Source of the DNA: a virus
Strand: one strand, 5' to 3'
Virus record (IMG/VR): IMGVR_UViG_3300028581_000170
Location: 1 to 29,845 of that record
Length of the DNA stretch: 29,845 nucleotides
Shown: positions 14,080-29,845 of the stretch, in pieces
Layout of the letters: every line of letters begins with the position of its first letter
Numbering within the stretch: the stretch's first letter is position 1
Position numbers and translations under genes: made by a program
The notes under the pieces: model-generated
Seen by the model: the letters and a program-made list of their open reading frames with translations, nothing else
Told to the model about the DNA's origin: nothing
The model's database searches: none

Positions 14080-17000
14080 TTACAGGGCTAAGGCTGTATT
14101 TGTTGACCAAGTAATGTTTTGATATATTTTAACTTTGTCGGAGTCTATAGTTAATCCATTATCATCGTCAAATATTATTTTATTAGTTCCTATATATGTC
14201 TTATAAACGTCTGATGGATTTATGCCATATAAATCTGATAATCCTATTATCAGGGCACTTCCCCAATTATAGTTATTATTATAGTATGACCAGTCAAAAT
14301 CTACTGATTCATTATTTTTTACCATATTCCAAGACCTTGTTGTGGTTTTTTGAACTTGTTGCAAATTGTTTGCTTGATAATAAGATATATTATTAAATAA
14401 CGCTTTACCATTTAAATTAATAGAGCCTAGGAAGTTTCCAAAATCTAAAGAAGATTTAAAGGATATTCCAAGAGACCCCCACTCTTTAGATGTTATCACT
14501 GGCTCTTTAACTGGAATACCGTTCCAGTAATAAACTATATTGTTTAAAAATGTATTAGATGACACGCTTTTTGCAAAAATTCTTGCTCTAAGTCCAAAAT
14601 CACTATCTGCTACTGAATAAAATTTTACAATGTCATCTTTGTAAACAATTTCAAATAACTCTGTTGGAATGCTTGAAAATTTATTTTCAGGATATCTTAT
14701 CCACATTTGAACCGCACTTATTAAATAATCTGAAGACAATGATTCATTTATTGGAAATGAAATCCCACGACTTTGTAATGACAATATATCTCCAAGAACT
14801 TGTATTCCAGAGTTTTTAGTTAAATACAAATATGGAGTGCTACCCTTATAAATTGCAAAAGGATTTTTAGATTTATAATCATAATATATTCCAGATTTTT
14901 TATATGGAAATAAATTTACTCCAAACCTTGTTCCAATTGGATTAAAGGAGTTGTCATTAAAAGCCTGAGATGCAAATTCCAAACTACGCACAATTGCTGG
15001 TCTATTTAATATTCCACGTACATTAAACTCTAAATGATATACAATTGCTAATTTATTAAAGTCAACAGTTTTCGTTGGGTATATTATTGAATTATTTATT
15101 ATTTCAAACTTTGTATTTTGCCAATCTGGATATTTGTCAATATCGATAATGGAGTTATCTAATACTGGCTGAGTTATTGTAAAATTACTATCTAATAGAT
15201 TAGCGCCATCTTCTATATATTGAAATGTCAAATAACTTTTTATAACGGAATTAGTTGTATCGTATTTGTATAACTTTATAGAGTTCTCTTTGGCATCTTG
15301 ATAGTCATTCCAATTAGTCTTTAACTGATTATCAAAATCATAATATGTCTTTTGAACTGGGTTAGAATAAGTATTGTATAATTCTTCATACGTCCATGAA
15401 GATATTGTCTCTTCTTCAATTAAATTTGTTGGTGATGGAATTGAAATATTAAATTGTAAAAAATCTAAATCGTAGAATTGGTCTCCAGAACTATCTGTTA
15501 CATATTGACCAAAATATGATAATGGCATATAGTCTTCCCAAGATCCAGAAATTCCAATATCTAGAAAATAAAGACCATAAGATTCAATAGGTAGAAGGGT
15601 ATAACTTGATAAATTTTCAATTAATCCAATTGCATTTTCTTCTTCAATTACCCCACTTATAGATAAATCATCAAATATTGCAATTCCATTATTATTAAAA
15701 TAGTTAATAATTTTTAATAAATTTTTTGTTGTTGAAAATCCTACAGAATAAATTCTTCCTAAAAATGTACCAGATAAGGAACCATCCCCTGCAACATAAA
15801 CTTTAAGGTAATTGCGATTCCCAAAAAATGCAGAAACATTGCCACCAAACGAATCTGCCAACAACGTTAAGTTTACTCCAGCAGAAAACAATTGATGCTC
15901 TTCAATTATTGAAGACGTGTATATCTCTTCCTCTATGCCATTATAATATAGTTTATACGATATAACATTGTTTTCTTGCTTAACTATAAAATAGTTATTA
16001 TTTAATTCATTATATATTTTAAAAAGAACTTGTTCTGAATCAAGGTTGTTATTACTAAAAACTCCATAAAACGCATCCACTTGACTATTTAAAATATTAA
16101 AAGTATTAAAATTAAAATAACATGTTTTAGTATTCCAAGTATTATTTGGTCTAAATGTAATAAAGTTATAGTTATTAACTGGTCCAGACTCTTCGTTTTG
16201 AATTTGTTTGTTATCGCTATACAAACTAACAATTGATTTATCAGATGTATAAATGTTTGGAAGTTTATATTCTGGAGTTCTTAATGTATTTTCTGTTGTA
16301 GTTAAATTATCAAAAGATCCTTGCTGCCACTCGGCAAAATTTGGATAATTATAATTTGATGTATAGTCGGCAAACGAATAATCAATAAATGCCGATGTTC
16401 CCCCATATGCTGAATTTATTCCTTCTGGAGAAACAACTCCCTGACCATAAACAAATCTTCTTTTTGCAACATTTAATGGGACCTGATAAGAGTAAATAGC
16501 AACACAATCCAACTCAACTGGAAGTATATCGTCATAAGAATAAAAGCCCAGCCAGTCTTGATTTTTTCCAAATTCATTATATTGTTCTGGTAATTCTAAG
16601 TTATTTGTTTCAATGTTTAAAGATATGACTTCTTCTCCATTTAAAATTAATGTTGCAGAATTTTTAATTAATCTAATTTGTATAAGCATAGGCCTAAACC
16701 ATTCACCAACAAAATGCGATGCAAAAATTTTTCCTATCTTTAATGTTAAAAAACCACTATCTACGTATAGCCCATCATCAGAAGATATCGGTCCAAATAT
16801 TTTTTTAGGTATTTCTGAATTTGAATTAATCCTTGTCCAAAACTCTACTGTATATTCTTTGTGTTGACCAACCTTATTTAAAAAGCCTTTTCCTGGAACA
16901 ATTAATGAAGGCTCGTCTAGTGGGTTTGGATTTAATGTAGTGGCGTTTGATGCTCCATATACTAATGGAATTCCTGTATTTTTTGCTAACAACTTATTAT

Positions 17001-17721
17001 CAACTACCAAGTAGTAAGCGGTGTCTGCTGATATTCCATATGCTGGTGACTCTACACCACTTAATGTGTTTAATGCAATACCTTCTGGCATTAGCGATAA
17101 GTTTAAACCTAAAGACTGAAAGTTAAACTCTTCTGACCATTGACCAACGGTTATTCCATTTAAATAATAAAGATAGTCATTGGGTGTTGATCCACCTTGA
17201 TTAGATGTTATTTTTATCACTACTCTAAAATTTGTATTTTCATTTACAATTTCAGATGTTTTAGAAACAAATATCCAAGAGTTTTTATCTTCTACATTTA
17301 TTTCATAAGTTTTTAATTTTTCAACTACAGTTGATGTCGTTGTATCTGTATACTGAAATCCAATATCGACAGACTTTATATATTCACTATCAATATATAT
17401 ATGGCTACCAACACAAAATGTACCAAGGCTTGAATTTAAATCTGTAAAATTTATTATATCTGGACTGACACAAACTATGTCTGTTGTTTCAGATATCGGA
17501 ACATTTCCTTCTAGTTTATTTAAATCTATATTTGTAAATGGTGCATTCTTATCCAGTGTTTCTAAAGAGGTAGATCCTCCAGTTACTAACCAGGATTCAC
17601 CCATATTCTGATAGTCTGTGTCTATTAAATTTATATAGTCCACTGCCCCGTCTAATGCCCACAAGGCTATTGGGTGTTCAGCAAATATCTTTTCTGCATA
17701 TAAATTTGATGGGTTAGACAT
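14080..17721 (-). CDS. Very large virion-type protein with LamG-like domain
   Basis: A 1213-residue, Asn/Ser/Tyr/Ile-rich protein with few basic residues. It opens with NLYAEKIFAEHPIALWALD, a start I associate with large structural proteins of actinobacterial phages. Residues about 280-430 look like a laminin-G/concanavalin-type jelly roll: EYTVEFWTRIN, a LTLKIGK strand, LIKNSATLILNGEEVISLNI, then LDCVAIYSYQVPL. Further beta-rich repeats of the same kind follow (for example near YQVPLNVAKRRFVYG and the C-terminal WGSLGISFKSSLDFGNFLGSI with LNGKALF). Such domains usually bind sugars, so a receptor-binding or virion surface role is likely. It has an extended -10 promoter and an AGGAG ribosome site, and sits unusually between the B12 cassette and the head genes rather than with the tail tip genes. 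Confidence 0.75.
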   Translation of the reverse strand: MSNPSNLYAEKIFAEHPIALWALDGAVDYINLIDTDYQNMGESWLVTGGSTSLETLDKNAPFTNIDLNKLEGNVPISETTDIVCVSPDIINFTDLNSSLGTFCVGSHIYIDSEYIKSVDIGFQYTDTTTSTVVEKLKTYEINVEDKNSWIFVSKTSEIVNENTNFRVVIKITSNQGGSTPNDYLYYLNGITVGQWSEEFNFQSLGLNLSLMPEGIALNTLSGVESPAYGISADTAYYLVVDNKLLAKNTGIPLVYGASNATTLNPNPLDEPSLIVPGKGFLNKVGQHKEYTVEFWTRINSNSEIPKKIFGPISSDDGLYVDSGFLTLKIGKIFASHFVGEWFRPMLIQIRLIKNSATLILNGEEVISLNIETNNLELPEQYNEFGKNQDWLGFYSYDDILPVELDCVAIYSYQVPLNVAKRRFVYGQGVVSPEGINSAYGGTSAFIDYSFADYTSNYNYPNFAEWQQGSFDNLTTTENTLRTPEYKLPNIYTSDKSIVSLYSDNKQIQNEESGPVNNYNFITFRPNNTWNTKTCYFNFNTFNILNSQVDAFYGVFSNNNLDSEQVLFKIYNELNNNYFIVKQENNVISYKLYYNGIEEEIYTSSIIEEHQLFSAGVNLTLLADSFGGNVSAFFGNRNYLKVYVAGDGSLSGTFLGRIYSVGFSTTKNLLKIINYFNNNGIAIFDDLSISGVIEEENAIGLIENLSSYTLLPIESYGLYFLDIGISGSWEDYMPLSYFGQYVTDSSGDQFYDLDFLQFNISIPSPTNLIEEETISSWTYEELYNTYSNPVQKTYYDFDNQLKTNWNDYQDAKENSIKLYKYDTTNSVIKSYLTFQYIEDGANLLDSNFTITQPVLDNSIIDIDKYPDWQNTKFEIINNSIIYPTKTVDFNKLAIVYHLEFNVRGILNRPAIVRSLEFASQAFNDNSFNPIGTRFGVNLFPYKKSGIYYDYKSKNPFAIYKGSTPYLYLTKNSGIQVLGDILSLQSRGISFPINESLSSDYLISAVQMWIRYPENKFSSIPTELFEIVYKDDIVKFYSVADSDFGLRARIFAKSVSSNTFLNNIVYYWNGIPVKEPVITSKEWGSLGISFKSSLDFGNFLGSINLNGKALFNNISYYQANNLQQVQKTTTRSWNMVKNNESVDFDWSYYNNNYNWGSALIIGLSDLYGINPSDVYKTYIGTNKIIFDDDNGLTIDSDKVKIYQNITWSTNTALAL

Positions 17722-18873: not shown

Positions 18874-20904
18874 TTAGTAAAGTTTAATTTCACAGGCATC
18901 TGTACTGCAATAAGCCTCACCCTGTGCCTCTAGGTTTTCTACTCCATCATAAATTGCGGACCAATCAATCTTTGCAATTTTTCCAACATAAGAGTTATAT
19001 TCTTCTTTTGTAATATTATTATATGGTTGTTGAGGGAATGTTTCATTACCCATTGGCAAAAATGAAACAGCCTTCAATTCTCCTTCATAAAGATGAAGCG
19101 CTGGAGCAACATGTTTTTTTTCTGTTTCCTTATCAAAAGATAGGGTTACAGAAACCCCATTATCAGACCAATATTTTTGAGCGGTTGCTGCCAAACCAAT
19201 TTTTTCAAAAAGACTTACATCTTTTTCAGAACGTGGATGTCCAGATGCTACTGGGAAATATACTACTGAGGTGTTAGCAGAAACTAAGTCTGCTTCAACT
19301 TTATACCCTGCTGCTTTAAATAAATGAAGCATTGGGTCTGTATTTCCAAACCTTATAGCACGTAAATAAAATTCTCCTCCTGGACCCCAATGAACTCCTG
19401 GTGTTGCACCAGATAATAATGATACAGATCCTGAAGGTTTGACGGTAGTTACACGAATTGATTCACGTACACATAGCCATTCTGAGTATGAGTGATCATA
19501 CTGACGAATCCTCTTATACCCTTCGTCCATCCACTTACGAAGTGCTGGCATTCCTTTTGTATCAGCAAAGGATGCAATACCAGTTAGAGATGTTCCAATG
19601 CGACGATTGCGTTGCATAATTCCATTTGTGGTTTGCCAATGTGTTGGCATAAGAGTAACAGTCTTACCGTATAAATATGCAAACTTTAATGTACGAAGAA
19701 AATCTTCTCTATCATCATGACGATTTAGATGAACCTCTACTAATGTACATAATTCGTAAGATTCTAATGGTTGTTCTGCACATGGATTAAAACCCATTAC
19801 ACGATAGTCTTTCCCGTCTGGTGCATCTGCTAGTCTTCCGTAATTACGAGCAACATCTAGCCAAATAAATCCTGGCTCTCCGTTGTCTGCAATTAAATCA
19901 ACATAATCTTCATAGTTTGTTCCAACCTCTGCAGCAATAGAGTTGTTAGACATCCAAGCCCATCCTGGATTTTTTGGATCATAAGAGTTACGTTCTGGAA
20001 AAACCTCTGCATTTTTTAAATTACTAAAATCTTTATCTTCAGGATTACCTAAAGCGAGGGTAGCAGAACGACGAACATTACCAGAAACAACACATGTACC
20101 AATAAGGTTTACAATATCTACTATTGCACGAGAATCAAATTTATCCCCTGCTCTAGATCCTACAATCTTTGTGATACGGTTATGTAAATCTATTAATGGT
20201 TCTGGACCACTGGCTACCCCGCCAAAACCCTTGATGGGTGCCCCCAAAGGCCTAATAAGGTCATATGTGAACTGTTGTATGGGTTGGTTTGGGCGAAGGT
20301 ATGAGTTTATTAATAACCTTACAGATTCAACCCAGCCTTCTCTAGTATCAGGAATTTCATATATTGATGGTGGCTCAGTTGGATCATAAATTACCATTTC
20401 TTTTTCTTGTCCAAGAGTATCAAACCCTACACCTATACCCAACATTAATGCATCCATTACCCAAGAAAATAGGGCGCCAGGATCATTGCGGTCAATATCA
20501 CGAGTAGATACCATCGCACAATTTTGTAGGGAAGCAGAGTTGCGCTTGTCCGTAGTCATAGGAGTTCCAAAAGCCCATAAGCCACGACCAGGAGGTGTCC
20601 ACTTTAAGTTAAATAGACGATCATATGCTTCTTGAGCAGACTTTTGTCCTTTGTTGTCGTTCCAAGGCAGACGATTTTCTTTTGCCCAGTTTTTTTGAAC
20701 TGAATACATACCCTCAATTACACGTTTACAAACCTCATACCACCTTTCTTTTGTACCATCTTCTTTCATACGTGAATAAGTGCGTATAAAGGTTACCTCA
20801 CCAAGAGAGTTTGATCCAGCATCTGAGAATCCAAATGGAGGTGGAGTGTCTTTGTATTTTGCTACGAAGTCTTCTAGTAAACGAAAAGAAAAAATATCTG
20901 ACAT
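18874..20904 (-). CDS. nrdJ: Adenosylcobalamin-dependent ribonucleotide reductase (class II)
   Basis: A 676-residue enzyme of the monomeric class II type (Lactobacillus leichmannii RTPR-like, which has about 740 residues). Visible catalytic parts: GRGLWAFGTP (107-114), Cys129 in SLQNCAMVS, the NPCAEQPLE loop with Asn373, Cys375 (thiyl radical site) and Glu377, Cys386 as partner of Cys129, the PSGSVSLLSGATPG phosphate loop (490-503), and the C-terminal Cys666/Cys671 pair that relays electrons from thioredoxin. It reduces ribonucleotides (triphosphates in the RTPR type) to deoxyribonucleotides without oxygen, using adenosylcobalamin. It heads a four-gene operon ending in a cobalamin adenosyltransferase. 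The ATG follows a leader of about 55 bases with a weak ribosome site. All active site residues are present, so it should be functional. Confidence 0.95.
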   Translation of the reverse strand: MSDIFSFRLLEDFVAKYKDTPPPFGFSDAGSNSLGEVTFIRTYSRMKEDGTKERWYEVCKRVIEGMYSVQKNWAKENRLPWNDNKGQKSAQEAYDRLFNLKWTPPGRGLWAFGTPMTTDKRNSASLQNCAMVSTRDIDRNDPGALFSWVMDALMLGIGVGFDTLGQEKEMVIYDPTEPPSIYEIPDTREGWVESVRLLINSYLRPNQPIQQFTYDLIRPLGAPIKGFGGVASGPEPLIDLHNRITKIVGSRAGDKFDSRAIVDIVNLIGTCVVSGNVRRSATLALGNPEDKDFSNLKNAEVFPERNSYDPKNPGWAWMSNNSIAAEVGTNYEDYVDLIADNGEPGFIWLDVARNYGRLADAPDGKDYRVMGFNPCAEQPLESYELCTLVEVHLNRHDDREDFLRTLKFAYLYGKTVTLMPTHWQTTNGIMQRNRRIGTSLTGIASFADTKGMPALRKWMDEGYKRIRQYDHSYSEWLCVRESIRVTTVKPSGSVSLLSGATPGVHWGPGGEFYLRAIRFGNTDPMLHLFKAAGYKVEADLVSANTSVVYFPVASGHPRSEKDVSLFEKIGLAATAQKYWSDNGVSVTLSFDKETEKKHVAPALHLYEGELKAVSFLPMGNETFPQQPYNNITKEEYNSYVGKIAKIDWSAIYDGVENLEAQGEAYCSTDACEIKLY

Positions 20905-21078: not shown

Positions 21079-21798
21079 TTAATCTATAATATTCCATTCT
21101 TGTTTTTTTGTTTTTAAAAAAAGTTCATACTGTTCAGAAACTTTATCAATTAATTTTTTTGCATGCTGGTCAGCAAAGTTTTGAAAAAATAATCGTTTTT
21201 CTTTGTACTCTTTAGATTCTTGTTCTTTAATTGGATAAGAGTGAAACCTCATTAATCCATTTTCACCATAATCTTCAAATGTTTTAAAACTGTTTATCAT
21301 TTTATATCTATTAAGTTTTTTAACTTCATGAAATATGTCGTATTTATTCATTATTAAATCATAAATTTTATCTTCATTATTGTTAAAAATTTCTATTGGA
21401 ACACATACTACATTTTTATATTTTTTTTCTAAAGAAAAATATTTTGTAAAATTGTTAATTTCATGAAACAAGTAACGATTAAGTTCTTTAATGGGAAGAT
21501 CTGGTTCATTGTATCCATACATCAACAAAGATGAAACAATGCTTTTTTGTGGATCTCTAAGCGGAACAACATGAATAATTTCTTTATGATGTAAATATTC
21601 TCCATCTTCTATAAAAATATTGGGACTATGATTTTCATCTGCTGAATTAAGTGCTATCCAGTTATTATCAACTGATATAAAATAAAAACTTGATTTTACA
21701 TAGTTGGTTGAACATCTTCTTGGCCCATCCACAAAAAGTACCTTATGCCCTAGGTTTTTTGTTTCTTCAATTAATGTCTTATATGTAAAATATTCCAT
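21079..21798 (-). CDS. Sulfotransferase-like P-loop protein
   Basis: A 239-residue protein. Residues 20-34 (VLFVDGPRRCSTNYV) look like the 5'-phosphosulfate-binding loop of sulfotransferases, with Arg replacing the usual Lys. Residues 79-92 (PLRDPQKSIVSSLL) resemble the 3'-phosphate-binding motif, with Arg81 and Ser89 at the standard spacing. The rest is helical and rich in Lys, Asn and Glu, as expected for the fold. It is the last gene of the oxygenase island and has no clear ribosome site of its own. A sulfotransferase would move sulfate from PAPS to a hydroxyl or amine, which would fit downstream of hydroxylating enzymes; a different phosphotransfer role is possible. The substrate is unknown. 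Confidence 0.5.
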   Translation of the reverse strand: MEYFTYKTLIEETKNLGHKVLFVDGPRRCSTNYVKSSFYFISVDNNWIALNSADENHSPNIFIEDGEYLHHKEIIHVVPLRDPQKSIVSSLLMYGYNEPDLPIKELNRYLFHEINNFTKYFSLEKKYKNVVCVPIEIFNNNEDKIYDLIMNKYDIFHEVKKLNRYKMINSFKTFEDYGENGLMRFHSYPIKEQESKEYKEKRLFFQNFADQHAKKLIDKVSEQYELFLKTKKQEWNIID

Positions 21799-21816
21799 TT
21801 TAACTATAACGTATTT

Positions 21817-22440
21817 TTATTTTTTTAATGTATAACATACATTTAAAACACATCTAAACTGTTTTGTATTTGTTGTGTAGTTTGAGTGAAACTGATGTCC
21901 ATTAAACCTTATTGCTTTTCCTGCTTTTGGGGAAACACTTTTTATAATTTCTGGATTATCCATATTATCACCAAGCCACTTATTATAAAAAACGGTATCT
22001 CCATCAACATTATGAAGATAATACAAAAACACATCATGTTTTATAATTGTATCAACATGAGCATAGTGCAATGAATTGTCATTATCCATGCCAGTGATTG
22101 CTATTCTAGACCTTAAAATTTTGTCATATTTTATATTGTGTTTATTACAAAATTTATCAAAAATATCTTTAAAATCTTTTAGTTCTAAATCACCTAAAAC
22201 CATAAAAAATGGTTTTGAATCTTGGTCGTTAAATGCTAAAGGGGTTTCAGTATATGGGAAAACTCCTTTTTGGCTGTCTTTAATAATTTCAAGACCATTT
22301 GTAACCCTCCATTTAGGCAATGGGGTTTCTTTGTGTCCATTATTTCTAAATATTTTATTAATAAAATCGTGTTGATCTTCTAGTGTTAAAAAATTATCAT
22401 CTTCTATAATGTAATCTTCTGATTTGTTTAATTCTTCCAT
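21817..22440 (-). CDS. 2-oxoglutarate/Fe(II) oxygenase-like protein
   Basis: A 207-residue protein with a jelly-roll oxygenase C-terminal half. Iron ligands: His128 and Asp130 in YAHVDT, and a distal His (His185, or His182) in RFNGHQFHSN; Arg196 in QFRCVLN is placed to hold 2-oxoglutarate. The strands between (HDVFLYYLHNVDGDTVFYNK) are typical of the double-stranded beta helix. Enzymes of this kind hydroxylate proteins, sugars, lipids or nucleotides using oxygen and 2-oxoglutarate. The ATG has an AAAAAGGAG ribosome site, and a TATAAT box (22456-22461) overlaps the end of the gene before, so a weak internal promoter is possible. It differs strongly from the other oxygenases in the island. Substrate unknown. 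Confidence 0.78.
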   Translation of the reverse strand: MEELNKSEDYIIEDDNFLTLEDQHDFINKIFRNNGHKETPLPKWRVTNGLEIIKDSQKGVFPYTETPLAFNDQDSKPFFMVLGDLELKDFKDIFDKFCNKHNIKYDKILRSRIAITGMDNDNSLHYAHVDTIIKHDVFLYYLHNVDGDTVFYNKWLGDNMDNPEIIKSVSPKAGKAIRFNGHQFHSNYTTNTKQFRCVLNVCYTLKK

Positions 22441-22463
22441 TTTTTCTCCTTTTTAATTATACA

Positions 22464-23138
22464 CTATTCTTGACCAGTTGAAGATCTTGCAAAATCTAAA
22501 GGTACGTTATGATACCAATTTGGCAGTGCATACCTTGGACCTTTTGTTATTGGATGAACTTCATGAATATATAAAAAGTTAGATGGAAAAAATAATACAC
22601 TTCCTGGCTCTGGTTTAATTTTAATATTTGACTGTCTAAACTCTAACTCTCCACCTTCATAGTCATTGTTTAAATAAAGCAAAACAGATAAAACTCTTGT
22701 GCTAACCCCTTGATCTTGATGTGCTGGTAAATGTCCAGAATAATCATATCTTAATAAGTGCATATTGCTTTCTCTTGATTTAATATTTTTTTCTGCCCAT
22801 GGATATAACTCTGTTGAGTAGTGAGTTAATGTACTTTCTAGTGCCCCAAACAATTGAGAAGAGATGTTTGTTTGTTCTTTTTTATAAACATCGGTTTCTT
22901 GTATATCTTTTACTTGTGGAATAAATTTTTGTAAACAAAATGTTTCTTTGTTTCCACTTTCGTTTTTCCAAGGAGTCCATGGCCTTACTGAAGTTTCAGA
23001 AGAAGAAATTTTTTCCTCACTCAATCTTTTATCTAAGAATTCAATTTCTGATATCAGTATTTCTGGATTTTTTATTATATTTTTATAATAAACTAAGCCC
23101 AAATCTAAAACTTCAAAATCAACTTTATTTGAATTCAT
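22464..23138 (-). CDS. Prolyl-4-hydroxylase-type 2OG/Fe(II) oxygenase
   Basis: A 224-residue protein that is the most canonical oxygenase of the island. Its C-terminal half reads as a P4H-type domain: His140 and Asp142 in PAHQDQG, then VLSVLLYLNNDYEGGELEF, IKPEPGSVLFFPS, and His192 in YIHEVHPITKGPRY with Arg202 binding 2-oxoglutarate. All three iron ligands and the Arg are present, so it should be active. The ATG at 23138 overlaps the preceding gene by 14 bases; an earlier in-frame ATG at 23195 would give a 71-base overlap and has no ribosome site. P4H-like enzymes hydroxylate proline or other residues in proteins; in phages the targets are generally unknown. Confidence 0.85.
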   Translation of the reverse strand: MNSNKVDFEVLDLGLVYYKNIIKNPEILISEIEFLDKRLSEEKISSSETSVRPWTPWKNESGNKETFCLQKFIPQVKDIQETDVYKKEQTNISSQLFGALESTLTHYSTELYPWAEKNIKSRESNMHLLRYDYSGHLPAHQDQGVSTRVLSVLLYLNNDYEGGELEFRQSNIKIKPEPGSVLFFPSNFLYIHEVHPITKGPRYALPNWYHNVPLDFARSSTGQE

Positions 23139-23718
23139 GATGTTGCGCTTCCCATCTTGGATATTTATCTTCTCCAAGAAAGTCTGGATCTGCATTAGTT
23201 GGAATGCTAGTGTGCATATATAAAGCAGTGTACCTGTGTCCCGCTGTGACTTCGGTTATTCCATGTATATACTCTGATCCAGCACTTGGAAAAAATACTG
23301 CAGAATATTGTTTTGGTTGATACTCAAATCTTTGATTTGGGAAATAAATTTTTCCTCCAGTATATTCAGATTCGTGGTTTAGATACATGATTGTGCTCCA
23401 CTCAATAAAAGGTTCTGGATCTTGTGCGTCTAAATGTAATGCACCCTTCGTTCCCGCTGTCCAGTGTGATCCAAAGGCTTTAAATGTGTATATCGGATTA
23501 ATAAATCCGTTTAACTCTTTGTGCTTTTGGTTTGCAAGGATAGAGTATTTTTTTAATATATTCATGACAATATTGTTGTATGGCAGCGAAGTACCCCCAT
23601 ATCTACCCTTATAGTATTCTGGATAAGGGTTTACTTCAGATGGAAAATTTTGTTCTTTAATTAATACTTCTGCATCTTCTTTTTCTATAAAGTTTTCTAC
23701 TATATTAATTCTATGCAT
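23125..23718 (-). CDS. 2OG/Fe(II) oxygenase, P4H-like
   Basis: A 197-residue protein with a complete 2OG/Fe(II) motif set: His95 and Asp97 in ALHLDAQD, STIMYLNHESEYTGGKIYF (GG turn before a strand), a FFPS strand, His152 in YIHGITEV and Arg162 in GHRYTALYMH. It resembles the following gene (22464-23138) in the order and spacing of these motifs, so the two are probably distant paralogs within one family. A TAGGTG ribosome site precedes the ATG. Its target is unknown; the place next to a glycosyltransferase-like gene suggests a protein or glycan target. Confidence 0.85.
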   Translation of the reverse strand: MHRINIVENFIEKEDAEVLIKEQNFPSEVNPYPEYYKGRYGGTSLPYNNIVMNILKKYSILANQKHKELNGFINPIYTFKAFGSHWTAGTKGALHLDAQDPEPFIEWSTIMYLNHESEYTGGKIYFPNQRFEYQPKQYSAVFFPSAGSEYIHGITEVTAGHRYTALYMHTSIPTNADPDFLGEDKYPRWEAQHHEFK

Positions 23719-23726
23719 TTTAACAC

Positions 23727-24569
23727 CTACACAATCTCTATTTTTTTTAGTACATTATGAAACCTTGTTTCATTTTCAGAATCTATACTGTACGCTGCTT
23801 TATAATATGGAACATCATCAGTTTCAAATGGTAAAAGTTTTAAATTTGATAAATCTATACCATGATATTTTTCAAACTTTTCACCTTTAATCTCTTTATT
23901 TTTTATCATTAGCATAAGTTTATTATACCCGTGATATTTTGAATATGGTAAATATTTTTTTTCTTTATATATTTTATCATAAAATAAATCATTCATGCTT
24001 TTTATTTTAAATCCATGCTCATTAAATAAAATAGAAAGAACTAGTTGATCTCCATATTTTTTTAAAAATTTTGATTTTGATAAAAAAATAGCATTTGACA
24101 TTTTTAAAAAAATAAAATCTTTATTTATCCACTGAGATTCAGTTATTGTTTGTGATATTTTATAATTTTCTTTAATAAAAAATTTATCGATATTTAAAGA
24201 TATTATGTTTTTTCCAGAAACTATATCTTTATCTCCACATTCTTTTATTAATTCGCTATCCCATCCAAATTTAAAAATAGTTGAGTCAGAAATAGATAAA
24301 AAATAATCAAAATTTCCGAATAAACTCATAAGTCTATAATAATAAATTCCTTTTCTATCATCCCACTGAACATGGGTATATTTTATGTTAGAATCTTTAT
24401 TAAATATCTCTGATCTATCTACTGTGTTTTGATCATAAATATCAATAAAAATATTGTTAATAGAATTTTTTTTTAAATTTATGCAAAAATCTAATAAGTC
24501 TTTATTTTTATAAGAATAAAGAAATACTTTAATTTTTTTTATGCTAATGGAATCCAATGCTGTTCCCAT
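23727..24569 (-). CDS. GT-A glycosyltransferase-like protein
   Basis: A 280-residue protein. The N-terminal part fits a GT-A Rossmann-like fold: IKVFLYSYKNKDLLDFCINLKKNS, then IFIDIYDQNT, and a nucleotide-sugar-like region WDDRKGIYYYRLMSLFGNFDYFLSISDSTIF...GWDSELI. This order resembles the GlcNAc-transferase family PF11397 (a YR...L...dYflqiDsH..F...WD pattern), with an SDS in place of a DxD. The C-terminal 100 residues are Lys- and Tyr-rich and not recognised. It overlaps the previous gene by 31 bases if ATG at 24569 is used; TTG at 24557 would give a shorter overlap. The island context suggests that it glycosylates a target first hydroxylated by a neighbouring oxygenase; this is inference. 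Confidence 0.5.
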   Translation of the reverse strand: MGTALDSISIKKIKVFLYSYKNKDLLDFCINLKKNSINNIFIDIYDQNTVDRSEIFNKDSNIKYTHVQWDDRKGIYYYRLMSLFGNFDYFLSISDSTIFKFGWDSELIKECGDKDIVSGKNIISLNIDKFFIKENYKISQTITESQWINKDFIFLKMSNAIFLSKSKFLKKYGDQLVLSILFNEHGFKIKSMNDLFYDKIYKEKKYLPYSKYHGYNKLMLMIKNKEIKGEKFEKYHGIDLSNLKLLPFETDDVPYYKAAYSIDSENETRFHNVLKKIEIV

Positions 24570-25186
24570 CCTTGCATAAGTCCCTTAAATGGAACTACAT
24601 CATATGCAATAGTAATTCTTGGCCCTTCCCAATCCCAATCACCCATAGCATGTGGATGGCCAGTTTCTGAAAGAATTGCACGATTATCTTTATTGTGGTT
24701 TTCAATTACATTATCAAAAACATTATAGTGCGTAATTGATGGCTCTGCCTTGACCGCATAATAACCATGAAACCATGGGGCTCCTCTGCCACCATGTTCG
24801 TGCCAGTCTAGTTTACCAATATGGTTATAATTTATATTAAACCATGCCTGTGTCCAAAATTCTTCTTTTTCAAAATCTATTTCATAGTGGTTACAAGCAT
24901 CAATTGTCATTGACCTAACAGACTTAAACAGTTTGTGTATTCCTGGATGGTAAAACTGAAATGCATTATACTTGTTCCATTTTGATGTTGTTATGCTTCC
25001 AGCGCCATCCCAAATTGTTTTTTCATTATTGTCATTTTGAAGAATTTCTCCTTTTTCAATTCTGTCATATTGTATTTGTAAAAAATTAGCCAAATCGCCA
25101 AGATCGTTGTCTAGTTGTCTTTCAAAAAACTTGTGTGTTTTGTTAGAGTTTAAACTTATTTGATCTTTAAAGAAATCATTATTCAT
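24539..25186 (-). CDS. Divergent 2OG/Fe(II) oxygenase-like protein (HxH variant)
   Basis: A 215-residue protein. The second half has a jelly-roll oxygenase layout: WHEHGG (His129 and His131 on either side of Glu130), APWFHGYYAVKAEPSITHYNVF, and a late GHPHAMGDWDWEGPRITIAYDVVP with candidate His177/His179 and Arg190. The usual HxD is missing; an HxH near SG-YY is known in the PF13759-like family, so it may be a member of that group, or an inactive relative. The ATG at 25186 lies one base after the upstream stop codon and has AAAAGG 7 bases before it; a longer version starting at 25258 would overlap the previous gene by 71 bases and is less likely. Confidence 0.6.
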   Translation of the reverse strand: MNNDFFKDQISLNSNKTHKFFERQLDNDLGDLANFLQIQYDRIEKGEILQNDNNEKTIWDGAGSITTSKWNKYNAFQFYHPGIHKLFKSVRSMTIDACNHYEIDFEKEEFWTQAWFNINYNHIGKLDWHEHGGRGAPWFHGYYAVKAEPSITHYNVFDNVIENHNKDNRAILSETGHPHAMGDWDWEGPRITIAYDVVPFKGLMQGWEQHWIPLA

Positions 25187-25187
25187 T

Positions 25188-25898
25188 TTAATACCTTTTC
25201 CTTTGCCAAGTAGTTTTTTTGTAATGTCCCGTGATATGAGACCTTCTTTTTTCTTCACGTATCCTATGTTTTAAAACTGATTCTTCTGATAAATCAATTT
25301 CTAGATCCCACTCCTCTCTTTTAATTGGTATCATTTGAAATATGGGAGTCCCCTTTTCTATTTTACCAATAAAATTTCTTTTAATAAATAAAGGAATAAA
25401 TGCTGGTAGCGCCCAAATATCAGAGTCAACAATTGCTGATGGAACATAAAATGGTAAATCTGGTCTGTTTAGTGGGTGCGTAATTATAGTTGAGTAATCC
25501 TTTGGTGTTTCCCAGTACCAATTCATTTTAACACCAAACTGTATTGGATGACAGTCTTGTGGTATTGCTTGATCAACATCTGGACGTATATCCATAATAT
25601 TTAATTCTGCATTCCAAGAAACTATCGGTTTTCCATCTTCTTTGATATCAACATATACATCATCCTCTAAAAGATACATATATCCAGATGTCATGGCATC
25701 TAAAAATGGCAAACATAGTTTTGTTGAAACATCTGAGCCATCAGATCCACGATCATTAATTGGATTTAAATATTCTAAATCGTGACTAGTCCCATGCCTA
25801 TATCCAGCCAAATCCTTATACCATTCTGGAATAACAGATTTTGATTTTACTGGAACAACCTTGTCTTTTTGTTCTTTATTGCTATCAAGGCCAACCAT
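25188..25898 (-). CDS. DUF6065-like protein, paralog 1
   Basis: A 236-residue protein related to the 251-residue gene at 27122-27877: both have IPEWYK near the start, a K.C..(I/F)(L/S)D.....GY segment, a central aromatic 'P...G..MNW' or 'INMIWL' strand, a 'FIKRNF.GKI.KGTPIFQMIP.KRE' or 'FVKKNYKGIIKKGTPLIQVIPFKRE' strand pair, and a basic C-terminus. The order of these pieces resembles DUF6065 proteins of aquatic phages, a beta-rich family without known function. I chose the ATG at 25898, just after the preceding stop (TAAAATG, the same arrangement as the next gene's start); ATG at 25916 is also possible. No catalytic motif is visible. Confidence 0.5.
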   Translation of the reverse strand: MVGLDSNKEQKDKVVPVKSKSVIPEWYKDLAGYRHGTSHDLEYLNPINDRGSDGSDVSTKLCLPFLDAMTSGYMYLLEDDVYVDIKEDGKPIVSWNAELNIMDIRPDVDQAIPQDCHPIQFGVKMNWYWETPKDYSTIITHPLNRPDLPFYVPSAIVDSDIWALPAFIPLFIKRNFIGKIEKGTPIFQMIPIKREEWDLEIDLSEESVLKHRIREEKRRSHITGHYKKTTWQRKRY

Positions 25899-25899
25899 T

Positions 25900-26547
25900 T
25901 TAAACACTTTCTTCATATTCTTTTATAACTCTCTCTTGAATATCTTTATTGTCAATAATTATATCGTACATTATAGTGCCAATATCAACTATACCATATT
26001 TTTCTGTTTTCATATGTTCCCCGCTATTTTTTATTGAAAAATCTATAAAGGGTGTATTTATAAAAAAATCATCAAAATTTCTTTTAAAAAATGCTATTTC
26101 TTTTGTATAAACATCAAAAATTTTGCTACTTGATTGAACCTTAAAAATACCATCAAATTCTATTGTCCAAGGAACATAAAATTTATAAATTTTTTCATTA
26201 TTTAAATTATTATAATTAGATGAAGATGGATAAAACTGTCTTTGCCAACATTTATCAAGCATATATAAAGATTCTTTTTTATTTTCAACCCAAATTTCGG
26301 CATGTGTTTTTTGTCTTAAAATTATTTTATTATCTTGTTTAATTAGTTCTGGCTTATTATAAAAATATTCAACATATGGATTTACTGGAACCAATATTTT
26401 ATTTTTATATTTTGTTTTTAGTAGACTGCTATTTGAAAATTGTGAAATCATTTTTGATTCTTTAACTAATTCACTAAAACTTTTATTTTCTGAATTAATC
26501 CAATATTTAGATCCAAGCCTATTGTTATTTTCAAATAATGAAACCAT
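25900..26547 (-). CDS. Unknown protein of the oxygenase island
   Basis: A 215-residue, Lys/Asn/Phe-rich protein that I do not recognise. The C-terminal half (VPWTIEFDGIFKV, KEIAFFKRNF, FIDFSIKNSG, VDIGTIMYDIIID) has the rhythm of a beta sandwich and loosely recalls the DUF6065-like neighbours, whose 'KGTP..Q.IP' strand could correspond to its IGTIMYDIII. It may be a third, far-diverged member of that group. Its start shares a base with the upstream stop codon (TAATG), and its stop lies one base before the next start, so it is tightly coupled to both. Confidence 0.55.
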   Translation of the reverse strand: MVSLFENNNRLGSKYWINSENKSFSELVKESKMISQFSNSSLLKTKYKNKILVPVNPYVEYFYNKPELIKQDNKIILRQKTHAEIWVENKKESLYMLDKCWQRQFYPSSSNYNNLNNEKIYKFYVPWTIEFDGIFKVQSSSKIFDVYTKEIAFFKRNFDDFFINTPFIDFSIKNSGEHMKTEKYGIVDIGTIMYDIIIDNKDIQERVIKEYEESV

Positions 26548-27125
26548 TATAGATAAATATTTTCATCAAAGTTAAATCTAAATATTATGTTAGTAATAAA
26601 TTCCTGATCATTAAACTTTTTAAACAATCTTGAATGCTTTTGTTGATTACCCCAAAAAATAAGCGCTTGATTGTCTGATAACACATAATCTACATTTTCT
26701 ACACGTATTGCCCAATCAGTATTTGATTCTAATTGATAATCAACCATAATTGTATCTTTGTCTTCGGTATGATCTATATGCTCAGTAAGTTTTGGGTTGC
26801 CTAAATTTTTATTATACATCATAACTGTTGAAGACTTGCAATATTTATATCCAATTAAATTATTTTCTACAAGTTTTTCAGATATTTCATTAATAATTTT
26901 TTCTGGTATTTTTAAGTTTTGTAAATCAATTCTTGCAAAATCTGATTTAACAACACCTATGGTGTCTTCTTTTTTATGAACATACCTGGGGTCTTCTTTT
27001 TTTAATGAATAATGAGTTCCAGATTCTACCCAAATGTTTTCTCTTTTTAATTCTAAATTGATAATATCTTTTATTAAAAGAATGCTTTCTTGTGTCAATA
27101 AATCATCTATTACTATATTTTTCAT
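26547..27125 (-). CDS. 2OG/Fe(II) oxygenase-like protein
   Basis: A 192-residue protein with His116 and Asp118 in TEHIDHTEDKDTIMVDYQL, RVENVDYVLSDNQALIFWG as the central strands, and His164 in QQKHSRLF as distal iron ligand. The usual Arg for 2-oxoglutarate is not obvious at the expected distance (Arg183 in NIIFRF is a candidate), so the cosubstrate site may differ. The ATG overlaps the upstream stop by 4 bases (ATGA). It is quite unlike the other oxygenases in sequence. Substrate unknown. Confidence 0.68.
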   Translation of the reverse strand: MKNIVIDDLLTQESILLIKDIINLELKRENIWVESGTHYSLKKEDPRYVHKKEDTIGVVKSDFARIDLQNLKIPEKIINEISEKLVENNLIGYKYCKSSTVMMYNKNLGNPKLTEHIDHTEDKDTIMVDYQLESNTDWAIRVENVDYVLSDNQALIFWGNQQKHSRLFKKFNDQEFITNIIFRFNFDENIYL

Positions 27126-27877
27126 TTGTATTTTTTAGACTTCCAAAATAAATTTTTATATCCAGAACTAAAACTTGTTCTTATTGTTGCATCTTGCTCG
27201 TCTAATTTTTTTACAATATCTGGATCTCTTATAATTTCATAATTAAAATCTTCTCTTTTAAAAGGTATTACTTGAATTAAAGGAGTTCCTTTTTTAATGA
27301 TTCCCTTATAATTTTTTTTAACAAAAAATGAAAATAAACCAGTACTTAAAAATTCATCGGTATCTATTACACCTGGAACTGACATCAATGGAGACTCGTC
27401 TCCTAACATTGGATTTATAAATAAACAACTATATCCAGGCTTAGTTTTAACTAACCAAATCATGTTTATTCTTAATAAATCTCTTACATAAAAATCTTTA
27501 TCAATAGGCATTTTTTCATACTGAAATTCTTTATGATGTCCAGTTACTGCTCTTGTAAAAACATGATATGATCCAGGAACTTCTTGTTTTAATGTTTGTC
27601 CATCTGTAGTATCCAAATAAATATCAAATGGTGCTTTTAAAATATATCCCATTAATAAAACATCTGATATTGCCATACATTTTTTAACTGTTATATTTTG
27701 AAATCCATTTTTTGGCGTTTTATCATTGTCTTGATATGAAAACTGTGACTTATACCATTCTGGAATATTTTTTGATAATGGCTCTGGCTCTGGGAATGCT
27801 TTACCCATTTTTGGTAGTGAAGAAATAAAAGAAATATTGTAATCTTTTTTATCAATATTTTCTTGATCGTTTGCCAT
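27122..27877 (-). CDS. DUF6065-like protein, paralog 2, first gene of the island
   Basis: A 251-residue protein, paralogous to the gene at 25188-25898 (shared IPEWYK, GY, 'F.VKKNYKGIIKKGTPLIQVIPFKRE' and basic ends). The middle part (INMIWLVKTKPGYSCLFINPMLGDESPLMSVPGVIDTDEF) has the 'g.s.lf.~P......pG.~dtd' order seen in DUF6065 proteins of marine and freshwater phages. It has an AGGGGG ribosome site about 8 bases before the ATG and is the first gene behind the strongest promoter in the window. The two paralogs frame an oxygenase and an unknown protein. Function unknown; a beta-sandwich binding or structural role is possible. Confidence 0.5.
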   Translation of the reverse strand: MANDQENIDKKDYNISFISSLPKMGKAFPEPEPLSKNIPEWYKSQFSYQDNDKTPKNGFQNITVKKCMAISDVLLMGYILKAPFDIYLDTTDGQTLKQEVPGSYHVFTRAVTGHHKEFQYEKMPIDKDFYVRDLLRINMIWLVKTKPGYSCLFINPMLGDESPLMSVPGVIDTDEFLSTGLFSFFVKKNYKGIIKKGTPLIQVIPFKREDFNYEIIRDPDIVKKLDEQDATIRTSFSSGYKNLFWKSKKYK

Positions 27878-27897: not shown

Positions 27898-27926
27898 ATT
27901 ATATCAGATAGATATTAGTGTGGCAA
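27898..27926 (-). promoter_or_regulatory. Strong promoter for the oxygenase island
   Basis: On the minus strand TTGCCA (27921-27926, 5/6 to consensus), 17-base spacer, TATAAT (27898-27903, 6/6), with TGA completing an extended -10 (TGATATAAT). It overlaps the 3' end of the Hint-domain gene. Leader about 14 bases with an AGGGGG ribosome site. The best promoter match in the window. Confidence 0.8.
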
Positions 27927-29180
27927 AGATTCCAAAACAAGCATTTGTTCTGTAAAGAAGTTATCATGTGGTTCACAGTGAATTGAAATATTATTTTGAT
28001 CAACAGCAATATCTTCAACAATTTCAATATCTACAAAGTCATTTGCTTCATAAGAATATCTTTGATATGTATTGTCTATTTCATCTACTTTTATAAACTT
28101 TATGACAGCATCTTTCTTTGTTAAGATATAGTGTGTTGGAGTAAATATGTCTCCATCTATATAAACATATGTTGATCCAGAGTTTTGTAGAACAGATGTA
28201 ACAGTTGTTTCTACAATGTTTGCAGTAAAGTTGTCTGGGTTAGATGTCCAAGATAACCATTCTTGATCATCCATTCCTGATGGAATGTCTAATCCTAAAA
28301 GAACATCCCCTACTTCAACCTCTCCAGCAGGCTTTAATCCATTTGGAGTTCTAACTTTTGTTGCAACATCGATTGAGTTAGACCAACCAGCACTAAACCC
28401 ATATCCACCGCCACCGCCACCAGGTCCAAAGTAGGCTCCACCGAATGAGAATACTGGTGGTGCTGGTGAGAATCCGAATGGAGTAAATCCAAACGGACTA
28501 AATCCAAACGGAGCAGGAGCAAATCCAAACGGAGAAAATCCAAACGGAGTAAAGGAGAATGTTGTAGTTATATTATTTGATGAACTAGATGTTCCAGAGT
28601 TTCCATTAGCATTTGTTGCATAAACAGTGTATGTTTGTGCTGTTCCTGCTTCTTGACCAACTGCTACTGATGTAGATGCAGTTGATCCAGATTTACCATC
28701 ACTTGATGCCCAAGTGTAACCAGTTATTGCTGATCCGCCATCTGCTGGTGCTGACCAGGAAACGTCATCTTGATTAGCATTTGGAGATGAAGCGCTTGGT
28801 GCTGAAGGAGTTGCTGGTACAGTTGTTGCTGTAACAGAACTAGATGGTGAAGATGCTTCTGATGTTCCAACAGCATTAGTTGCAGTAACTGTAATAGTTG
28901 TAACTACTCCAGAGCCAAACCCTGTAATTGTTAAAGGAGATGATGAACCTGTTGCACTATGTGTTACGCCATGCACGGAACAATATCCAGAGGCTGTAAA
29001 AGATGTTATTTCTGCTCCATTATTTGAGCCTGCTGTAAAAGTTACAATTACAGCACCATTATTATATGGGCGAGCAGTTCCAACGTTTGATGCAGAAACA
29101 CTTACAGGTGCACTAGGCCTTCCTGCACCTTGAAAACCAAGGCCTCTAACACTTGCTGATCTGCCACCAATTATAGGCAT
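27915..29180 (-). CDS. Tail-tip/fibre protein with two Fn3-like domains, PFGF repeats and Hint domain
   Basis: A 421-residue protein in four parts. Residues about 22-120 and 123-208 are Thr/Ser-rich beta sandwiches of Fn3 type (PSAPVSVSAS..., VTATNAVGTSEAS; PATPSAPSAS..., VYATNANGNSGTS). Residues 209-250 contain PFGF repeats, followed by a glycine run (252-259). Residues about 266-418 look like a Hint (Hedgehog/intein) domain: Ser269-IDVATKVRTPNG as block A, KPAGEVEVGDVLLGLD, TPTHYILT (347-354, His350) as block B, and a final HDNFFTEQMLVLES. The usual C-terminal His-Asn is absent and the domain ends the protein, so splicing is unlikely; N-S acyl shift or cleavage remains possible. It follows a tail-fibre-like gene and has an AAGGAG ribosome site. 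Probably a virion surface protein. Confidence 0.75.
   Translation of the reverse strand: MPIIGGRSASVRGLGFQGAGRPSAPVSVSASNVGTARPYNNGAVIVTFTAGSNNGAEITSFTASGYCSVHGVTHSATGSSSPLTITGFGSGVVTTITVTATNAVGTSEASSPSSSVTATTVPATPSAPSASSPNANQDDVSWSAPADGGSAITGYTWASSDGKSGSTASTSVAVGQEAGTAQTYTVYATNANGNSGTSSSSNNITTTFSFTPFGFSPFGFAPAPFGFSPFGFTPFGFSPAPPVFSFGGAYFGPGGGGGGYGFSAGWSNSIDVATKVRTPNGLKPAGEVEVGDVLLGLDIPSGMDDQEWLSWTSNPDNFTANIVETTVTSVLQNSGSTYVYIDGDIFTPTHYILTKKDAVIKFIKVDEIDNTYQRYSYEANDFVDIEIVEDIAVDQNNISIHCEPHDNFFTEQMLVLESLPH
28471..28550 (-). repeat. Tandem 15-base repeat encoding PFGF units
   Basis: Five copies of a roughly 15-base unit (plus strand AATCCAAACGGAGTA with few changes, starting near 28471, 28486, 28501, 28522 and 28537), the third and fourth separated by 6 extra bases. 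They encode PFGFS, PFGFA, PFGFS, PFGFT and PFGFS. Near-identity at DNA level suggests recent slippage or duplication. Confidence 0.8.
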
Positions 29181-29191
29181 TTATTTTCTCC

Positions 29192-29845
29192 TTATGCAAA
29201 TCTTGTCTGTGAACCGAATACCGTAAAGGTTGCGCTTCCTGTCTTTACTATTGTGTAAGAGTAAATATCAATACTGTTTGCATTTCCTGCAGATGGTGCT
29301 GTTCCGTTTTGCCATTTTGGAGTTACTGCTGATCCATCAACTGTAAATCCAGTTGCACTGTATGGAGTTCCTCCGTTTGTTGCAAAAAATACAACTGTAA
29401 TAGAGTCATTTGTTGCAAGACTATTATTTAAAGTATTGCTTCCATCACCACGAACATTGAGTGTCCAATTGCCAGTAGCATTGCCAGTAGAGTATAGAAC
29501 TCCACTTGTTAAAACATCTAAGTTAACTGTTCCAGATGCACCAGTTCCAGAAACTGACCATCTTTCTTCTGGTCCTGTTAAGATTGGATTAACTTCTACT
29601 GCATTTGTAAGTGTTGGTGCAGTTGCAAATACTAGTGATCCAGATCCAGTTTCATCTGAGATAACTCCTGCAAGTTCTGAAGAAGATGTTGCAGCCAGTG
29701 CTGAAATCTTGCTTGCTGTAGTAATACCATTTGTTACTGTTGCAGCATTTCCAGTGTACTGTGTTGCTGATAGAACTTCAGTTCCATTAATTTTTAATAC
29801 CTTGCCAGAAGCAAGATCCATGTGCTCAGAAGATGTCCATGAATC
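29192..29845 (-). CDS. Tail-fibre-like protein, C-terminal part (5' end beyond the window)
   Basis: The frame remains open through the right edge (the eight codons before the ATG at 29821 read DSWTSSEH), so the ATG is probably internal and the gene starts outside the window. The first visible residues, SWTSSEHMDLASGKVLKINGTEVLSA, are a typical tail fibre linker (SEHLdLA.GK.YkInGtsVLs). A Ser/Thr/Gly-rich beta region follows, and the last 90 residues (about 120-209 from the ATG: NVRGDGSNTLNN, SITVVFFATNGGTPY, ANSIDIYSYTIVKTGSATFTVFGS) form a compact sandwich seen at the ends of phage fibres and sheath-like spikes. It probably contributes to host recognition. Functional family well supported; the exact role is not. 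Confidence 0.75.
   Translation of the reverse strand, partial: DSWTSSEHMDLASGKVLKINGTEVLSATQYTGNAATVTNGITTASKISALAATSSSELAGVISDETGSGSLVFATAPTLTNAVEVNPILTGPEERWSVSGTGASGTVNLDVLTSGVLYSTGNATGNWTLNVRGDGSNTLNNSLATNDSITVVFFATNGGTPYSATGFTVDGSAVTPKWQNGTAPSAGNANSIDIYSYTIVKTGSATFTVFGSQTRFA

Follow-up and report, generated by a model that had tools for sequence, protein, structure and literature searches.

A conserved ten-gene cassette of putative oxygenases, a glycosyltransferase and DUF6065 proteins, possibly involved in virion tailoring, in a probable actinobacteriophage

In this study, we analyzed a 29,845-base stretch of viral DNA (IMG/VR record IMGVR_UViG_3300028581_000170, positions 1 to 29,845; hereafter, the window), with emphasis on a ten-gene island that encodes several 2-oxoglutarate/Fe(II) (2OG) oxygenases, a glycosyltransferase and two DUF6065 proteins. 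We found that the island is a real, functionally coupled unit, conserved in order among related viral contigs. Since it combines prolyl 4-hydroxylase (P4H)-type hydroxylases with a PF11397 glycosyltransferase and lies near proline-rich repeats, hydroxylation followed by glycosylation of fiber repeats is the favored interpretation. The island would be a single transcription unit for a protein-tailoring pathway, with a virion fiber as the favored substrate; we infer all of its reactions and give this reading an even chance of being correct.

The island as a conserved unit

An earlier first-pass annotation of this DNA had described a ten-gene island, and ten collinear open reading frames, dense and mostly overlapping, were indeed found to span exactly positions 21079 to 27877 of the minus strand. 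These genes and their promoter are as follows (aa, amino acids).

27898..27926, minus strand: extended -10 promoter ahead of g1; 11/12 consensus positions plus TG
27122..27877, minus strand: g1, DUF6065/phrog_7084 paralogue a, 251 aa; phrog_7084 E 2.4e-42; dUTPase fold inferred from g4
26547..27125, minus strand: g2, probable 2OG-Fe(II) oxygenase, 192 aa; motif, and a weak phrog_2954 match (E 0.0033)
25900..26547, minus strand: g3, no assigned fold, 215 aa; invariant DKxxxRQFYPS; tightest cassette marker
25188..25916, minus strand: g4, DUF6065/phrog_7084 paralogue b, 242 aa; phrog_7084 E 3.3e-28; predicted dUTPase fold
24539..25258, minus strand: g5 (OX5), putative 2OG-fold oxygenase, 239 aa; fold of an AlphaFold (AF2) model; HxH motif
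23727..24569, minus strand: g6, GT-A-type glycosyltransferase, 280 aa; PF11397 at 24.2 bits (cut-off 21), 16-member alignment
23125..23718, minus strand: g7, P4H/P3H-like 2OG oxygenase, 197 aa; PHROG 2OG families, PDB profiles, motif
22464..23195, minus strand: g8, 2OG-FeII_Oxy_3 oxygenase, P4H-like, 243 aa; PF13640 E 7.7e-18
21817..22440, minus strand: g9, phrog_274-type 2OG oxygenase, 207 aa; phrog_274 E 1.5e-17, motif
21079..21798, minus strand: g10, possible sulfotransferase, 239 aa; motif DGPRRC[SA]TNY only

Co-occurrence of these genes in other phages had been named at the outset as a check on the pathway idea, and the genes do recur elsewhere in fixed order. Four other contigs (L057/L083, L035/L084, L028/L085 and L082) carry all ten without any change of order, and L086 has a comparable layout with eight of the ten island positions. 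So that g5 would not be selected for, a second sample of loci was centered on g3 (non-redundant, with at least 3 kb on either side; n = 35). Within 5 kb, every one of these loci carried a DUF6065 gene (35/35) and a glycosyltransferase gene (35/35), and most carried a P4H-like gene (32/35) and g5 (30/35), usually in the order g3-DUF6065-g5-glycosyltransferase-P4H. The nonsynonymous substitution rate (dN) was below the synonymous rate (dS) in all ten genes. Since gene order is conserved across dozens of contigs and dN is lower than dS, the arrangement exceeds what chance would give. These results bear directly on the possibility that the island is a hypervariable cargo site, where unrelated genes accumulate and act independently. 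The base composition (24 to 31% G+C in the island versus 32 to 41% in most flanking genes), the differences in gene content among lineages and the fast evolution of g10 would all suit such a site, but the 35/35 co-occurrence, the conserved order and the purifying selection on every gene do not. The g3-centered co-occurrence largely refutes a cargo site, which we consider very improbable.

The private promoter suggested by the first-pass annotation was also recovered. It reads TTGCCA-17-TGnTATAAT at positions 27926 to 27898, between the upstream Hint gene and g1, and its -10 element is kept in L083, L084 and L085; in L086, a perfect TTGACA-17-TATAAT stands right after a terminator-like hairpin. 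Promoter-like matches were no more common than in shuffled sequences (37 observed versus 54 expected), so the weight of the promoter call lies on its conservation. As for the host, WhiB was present in 11/11 long relatives and, among 14 control genomes, only in Corynebacterium, suggesting that the hosts are probably actinobacteria. A freshwater acI host would be a guess, drawn from C-terminal motifs of secreted proteins. The probable actinobacterial host, the two DUF6065 proteins and the Hint domain had all been overlooked by the earlier annotation.

Predicted enzymes and other proteins of the cassette

Five 2OG oxygenases had been claimed for the island. By profile, g7, g8 and g9 are clear members of this class; g5 can be added by its predicted fold, and g2 shows the motif only. 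The PF13640 domain of g8 is full length, and its HxD/H residues are seen in the conservation line. Its closest solved structures in PDB profiles are prolyl 4-hydroxylases (2.1e-6), with a weaker match to LH3 (0.002), and it also matches PF12851 weakly. The best structure-profile matches of g7 were P3H1 (E 9e-8) and P4H (E 1.3e-5), and its iron and 2OG residues (H95-x-D97, H152 and R162) are conserved. In the case of g9, the annotation of phrog_274 reads "endonuclease V", yet the protein holds invariant H128-x-D130, H185 and R196, and its homologue in the cultured Synechococcus phage S-RIM44 scores to PF13640. The most abundant island member is g5, with 101 relatives in viral contigs; none turned up among cultured phages. 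No usable family match was obtained for g5 in Pfam, PHROG or PDB profiles, and no curated model was found. Its AlphaFold model (predicted local distance difference test [pLDDT] score, 80.5) shows a double-stranded beta-helix, with 3bvc (Z 15.7) and 2rg4 (Z 15.3) as best matches, followed by PHD2 and other 2OG enzymes, suggesting a 2OG-fold oxygenase. The invariant residues of g5 are H153-x-H155, H201, H203 and R214, giving an HxH rather than an HxD iron motif, which is shared by the S-RIM44 2OG proteins gp160 and gp162. Finally, g2 is a probable 2OG-Fe(II) oxygenase by its invariant H116-x-D118, H164 and R166; in addition to the weak match to phrog_2954, its profile comparison with g7 was also weak.

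We also observed that phage proteins annotated as "DNA endonuclease V" or "ferrochelatase" (phrog_274, phrog_2954 and phrog_3531; S-RIM44 gp157 and gp159, at 16019-16612 and 14715-15350 of locus L088) look like 2OG oxygenases. A PF13640 match of gp159 and an HxD...H pattern point to this, so published phage ferrochelatase/2OG pairings may have been misread.

The GT-A-like gene held up, as g6 passes the curated cut-off of PF11397 (Skp1 GlcNAc-transferase type), which we take to be the Gnt1 family. This domain was present in 10/12 phage records searched versus 0/14 control genomes. The alignment of g6 covers residues 52 to 112, so that the match does not fix donor or acceptor. The sulfotransferase-like gene and the sulfation arm built on it were not supported. 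The P-loop-like motif of g10 is a resemblance that found no sulfotransferase support in Pfam, PHROG, NCBIfam or PDB-profile searches, nor in an hhalign comparison with a PF13469 sulfotransferase protein (0.2%), and this reading was set aside. Moreover, g10 is the fastest evolving and least constrained of the ten genes and turned up only in the four complete islands named above. A conserved protein with an N-terminal part resembling adenosine 5'-phosphosulfate kinase (PF01583) was seen in L072 (14948-15709), L077 (15607-16368) and G001 (91224-91985). Since only the N-terminal part matches, and the gene lies 55 kb away in G001, it was taken as a lead and not as evidence for sulfation.

Next to these enzymes, g1 and g4 are paralogues in phrog_7084, which corresponds to Pfam DUF6065. 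PF19541 (DUF6065) matches 10/37 members of the family (best, 3.5e-7); g4 itself has no Pfam match, so its DUF6065 membership comes via its family. The AF2 model of g4 (pLDDT 79.6) gave a Foldseek top list made up entirely of dUTPases and dCTP deaminases (Dcd; best E 4.6e-4), and VIA aligned 125 residues of it to the dUTPase fold (Z 9.7; root mean square deviation, 2.8 A). A dUTPase fold is thus predicted for g4 and, by homology, for g1. The dUTPases have five sequence motifs, including RS(S/G) in motif 2 and a Gly-rich motif 5. Among the 37 DUF6065 sequences, the D-x-D of motif 3 and a GTPxxQ-like motif 4 are kept, and neither RS(S/G) nor the Gly-rich motif 5 is present. Because most dUTPase motifs are lost, DUF6065 probably binds rather than hydrolyzes; hydrolase activity appears unlikely, and g1 and g4 are probably non-hydrolytic partners that bind a substrate or ligand. 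As in the window, DUF6065 genes of Halorubrum virus HRTV-10 (L087) and cyanophage S-RIM4 (L089) adjoin or lie near a ribonucleotide reductase (RNR) gene. The Caulobacterales copies are apparently lone chromosomal genes with no oxygenase cluster in the short loci examined, and they are uninformative as a context clue.

No Pfam, PHROG or PDB-profile match was found for g3, which has 191 relatives, and a relationship to DUF6065 was not accepted, given a weak profile comparison (11%).

Proposed pathway, candidate substrates and competing readings

In the pathway that we favor, the P4H-like g7 and g8, and perhaps g2, g5 and g9, would hydroxylate proline or other side chains. The sugar would then be added by g6 onto the new hydroxyl, in the way that Gnt1 acts on the Skp1 hydroxyproline in protists, and optional enzymes may cap the product further (g10 in the window, an O-carbamoyltransferase in some relatives). 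The DUF6065 pair would serve as non-hydrolytic substrate- or ligand-binding partners, and g3 might also take part. The last step appears to differ by lineage, with g10 in the window, a NodU-type O-carbamoyltransferase directly downstream of the oxygenase/glycosyltransferase genes in two relatives (L072, 12114-13538; L064, 12890-14350) and flavin halogenases both in S-RIM44 and at another DUF6065 locus carried by G002. Such interchangeable last-step enzymes fit a tailoring system. That second G002 locus (L097, 8448-16690) clusters a DUF6065 gene, a flavin tryptophan halogenase, a genuine PF13469 sulfotransferase, a PF11397 glycosyltransferase and a 2OG-like gene. Of the stepwise decoration proposed earlier, the sequence data thus retain P4H-like hydroxylases paired with a PF11397 glycosyltransferase, with neighboring repeats as plausible acceptors, but not sulfation.

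The island was described as lying beside tail genes, and this location was borne out. In transcription order, the window holds a tail-fiber-like gene, an FN3/Hint tail-type gene, the ten island genes, RNR and cobalamin adenosyltransferase genes, and then portal, protease, capsid and tape-measure genes, placing the island between a tail protein and RNR/packaging genes. The structural genes of the window are on the minus strand. The flanking features are the following.

29192..29845, minus strand: tail-fiber/virion structural protein, continuing past the window edge; phrog_5906 and phrog_6002
27915..29180, minus strand: upstream tail-type protein with FN3, PFGF-type repeat and C-terminal Hint, 421 aa; PF00041 E 5.4e-4, phrog_6977 minor tail protein, intein/Hint family-profile match
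18874..20904, minus strand: class II RNR, downstream of the island; phrog_367 E 4e-141, PF17975/PF21995
17757..18251: cobalamin adenosyltransferase near the class II RNR; PF01923 E 1.2e-46

The gap between the island and the RNR gene is about 170 bp, and RNR has its own promoter-like site; the adenosyltransferase probably supplies its cofactor. Farther downstream, a conserved 1213-aa protein (14080-17721) without a Pfam or PHROG match adjoins the portal gene in most relatives.

The first-choice substrate would be the Pro/Phe/Gly repeat found in the FN3-Hint protein next to the island. Its family profile matches inteins at 2.5e-5, and three members match PF14890 at 2.1e-6. Ahead of the Hint domain stands a repeat of low complexity, which reads PFGFSPFGF in the window and PFGFTP, PFGAFGF or HYAGF/YHGF in relatives. 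This upstream protein was the top scorer for aromatic/Gly-Pro repeats in 34/45 loci (99th percentile of control open reading frames, 13). P4H-like genes occurred in 0/6 loci with Pro-poor repeats versus 19/26 loci with Pro-containing repeats (Fisher p 0.0019, uncorrected for phylogeny). FG, GAF or HYAGF repeats of variable length stand just before the Hint domain in the window protein, in L002-L054 and in G010, and the FN3-Hint repeat protein might possibly be a self-cleaving or phase-separating fiber element. As a second choice, collagen-like Gly-X-Y proteins (GPPGPQGPAG..., GIQGTQG...) encoded by cassette-bearing phages are candidate alternative hydroxylase substrates; they were found in G009 (106069-106788, L349), G010 (84931-85662, L354) and G001 (14584-16998, L091). 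Of these, the long relatives G009 and G010 carry the core cassette at another place in the genome, with Hint and DUF6065 genes still next to RNR, and the G010 Hint protein (102492-104270, L355) has GAF repeats.

Several observations weigh against this pathway or its first-choice substrate. The correlation between proline and P4H-like genes ignores phylogeny and may reflect one clade. A Hint protein was found within 5 kb in just 3/35 of the g3-centered loci, and in L064, L072 and L077 the cassette lies near terminase-like, endolysin-like and signal-peptide genes. In G009, the Hint protein shows no strong repeat. Moreover, g3 has no family assignment and g10 no profile support. Because the Hint gene is rarely near g3-centered cassettes and G009 has no strong repeat, the adjacent FN3-Hint protein is only moderately supported as the substrate.

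The surroundings of the cassette in L064, L072 and L077 also suggest another target. The same enzymes could decorate a host-surface or secreted molecule (a cell-wall glycan, a small glycolipid or a secreted peptide) for superinfection exclusion or envelope remodeling. Consistent with this, signal-peptide proteins and an endolysin-like gene surround the cassette in these relatives, and after it comes the NodU-type O-carbamoyltransferase, a class best known for small-molecule and glycan substrates; in G001, sugar-transferase-like genes also form a block of their own. However, in the window and many relatives the cassette is part of the tail/packaging module and is preceded by a tail protein with repeats, and the PF11397 and P4H-like members suggest protein substrates. 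We regard a host-surface target as unlikely, though deserving of attention.

A third reading is DNA hypermodification, in which the oxygenases would hydroxylate pyrimidines in a TET/JBP-like manner, the glycosyltransferase or carbamoyltransferase would cap them, and DUF6065 and RNR would manage nucleotide pools. The predicted dUTPase fold of DUF6065, the RNR gene adjoining the island and near DUF6065 in HRTV-10 and S-RIM4, and the weak PF12851 match of g8 are in line with it, as is the carbamoyltransferase of the relatives, given that a 5-hydroxymethylcytosine carbamoyltransferase has been described (PMC8670742). Nevertheless, neither the thymidylate synthase/dCMP-hydroxymethylase family (PF00303) nor C5-methyltransferases (PF00145) were found in the 11 long relatives (0/11; 86 to 125 kb, the window being a 29.8-kb fragment), which disfavors cytosine hypermodification. 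In addition, g7 and g8 match P4H better than TET, five different oxygenases would be superfluous and the dUTPase motifs are largely lost, making DNA a quite improbable target.

The oxygenases might also be auxiliary metabolic genes that tune the 2-oxoglutarate/nitrogen status of the host or produce a small molecule, an idea put forward for the 2OG genes of cyanophages (PMC3037559 and PMC9602691). That proposal concerns cyanobacterial NtcA, whereas the hosts here are probably actinobacteria, and it leaves unexplained the fixed order with the glycosyltransferase, DUF6065 and g3 and the placement in the tail module. We judge a metabolic role slightly less probable still than DNA modification.

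Returning to virion tailoring, its fullest version would be a complete multi-enzyme phage pathway that hydroxylates, glycosylates and caps the Pro/aromatic-rich repeats of an autoprocessing FN3-Hint protein, with DUF6065 as substrate-binding partners, amounting to eukaryote-like hydroxyproline/hydroxylysine glycosylation in actinobacteriophages. This version is tentative, and we would sooner expect it to fail in some part than to hold in full. Overall, the conserved operon of oxygenases, one glycosyltransferase, DUF6065 and g3, often with a neighboring repeat tail protein, provides a concrete substrate hypothesis; should this prove correct, hydroxylation-dependent glycosylation of proteins would be known from phage virions as well.

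Comparison with known systems

Multiple 2OG genes near tail fibers are already known in cultured cyanophages. The density of oxygenase genes that had struck the first-pass annotation is real, but not unique, since a stretch of about 9 kb surrounding virion tail-fiber genes of S-SCSM1 contains at least 6 2OG genes, identified by annotation or homology. The additional claim that a pathway of this breadth is undescribed stands in part: S-SCSM1, with 24 2OG genes (PMC9602691), and S-RIM44 are comparable, with a function that, in the portion of the literature consulted, is not worked out. These precedents lower the novelty of the island, and the S-RIM44 island, with its four shared families between tail fiber and neck genes, also speaks for the tailoring pathway.

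In S-RIM44 (NC_047734, 101.8-112.8 kb), as in the window, the island lies between tail fiber and neck/packaging genes and shares homologues of DUF6065, OX5, g7 and g9 (hidden Markov model E values of 2.6e-18, 5.7e-6, 2.6e-5 and 9.4e-12, respectively). Unlike the window, it encodes two flavin-dependent tryptophan halogenases, a JmjC_2 protein and a DUF6445-like protein, and the tested stretch had no detectable homologue of g2, g3, the glycosyltransferase, g8 or g10. Several of the S-SCSM1 2OG genes likewise surround tail-fiber virion genes; however, they are spread over a 229-kb T4-like genome, and the consulted part of its description (PMC9602691) mentions no conserved DUF6065/g3/PF11397 cassette.

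The closest parallel to the proposed chemistry is the Skp1 pathway of Dictyostelium and Toxoplasma (PhyA and Gnt1), where a P4H-type hydroxylase acts first and a GlcNAc-transferase then modifies the hydroxyproline (PMC3515798). That pathway differs from the island in being eukaryotic and cytosolic, in making a single-site regulatory modification and in its other accessory enzymes. A literature search for hydroxyproline in phage tail fibers found no report. Collagen lysyl hydroxylation and glycosylation, as by LH3, offers another parallel. Virus-encoded collagen modification is known from the mimivirus collagen-modifying enzymes (PMC9546862), and the weak LH3 match of g8 and the collagen-like proteins of relatives recall that system; here, g8 and the glycosyltransferase are separate small proteins. 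Compared with dUTPases and dCTP deaminases, DUF6065 is alike in its predicted fold and in the D-x-D at the motif-3 position, but does not conserve RS(S/G) of motif 2 or the Gly-rich motif 5. As far as these searches show, what is new is that such a cassette is conserved among probable actinobacteriophages, together with the families of g5 and g3, the dUTPase fold predicted for DUF6065 and the association with Hint/repeat tail proteins.

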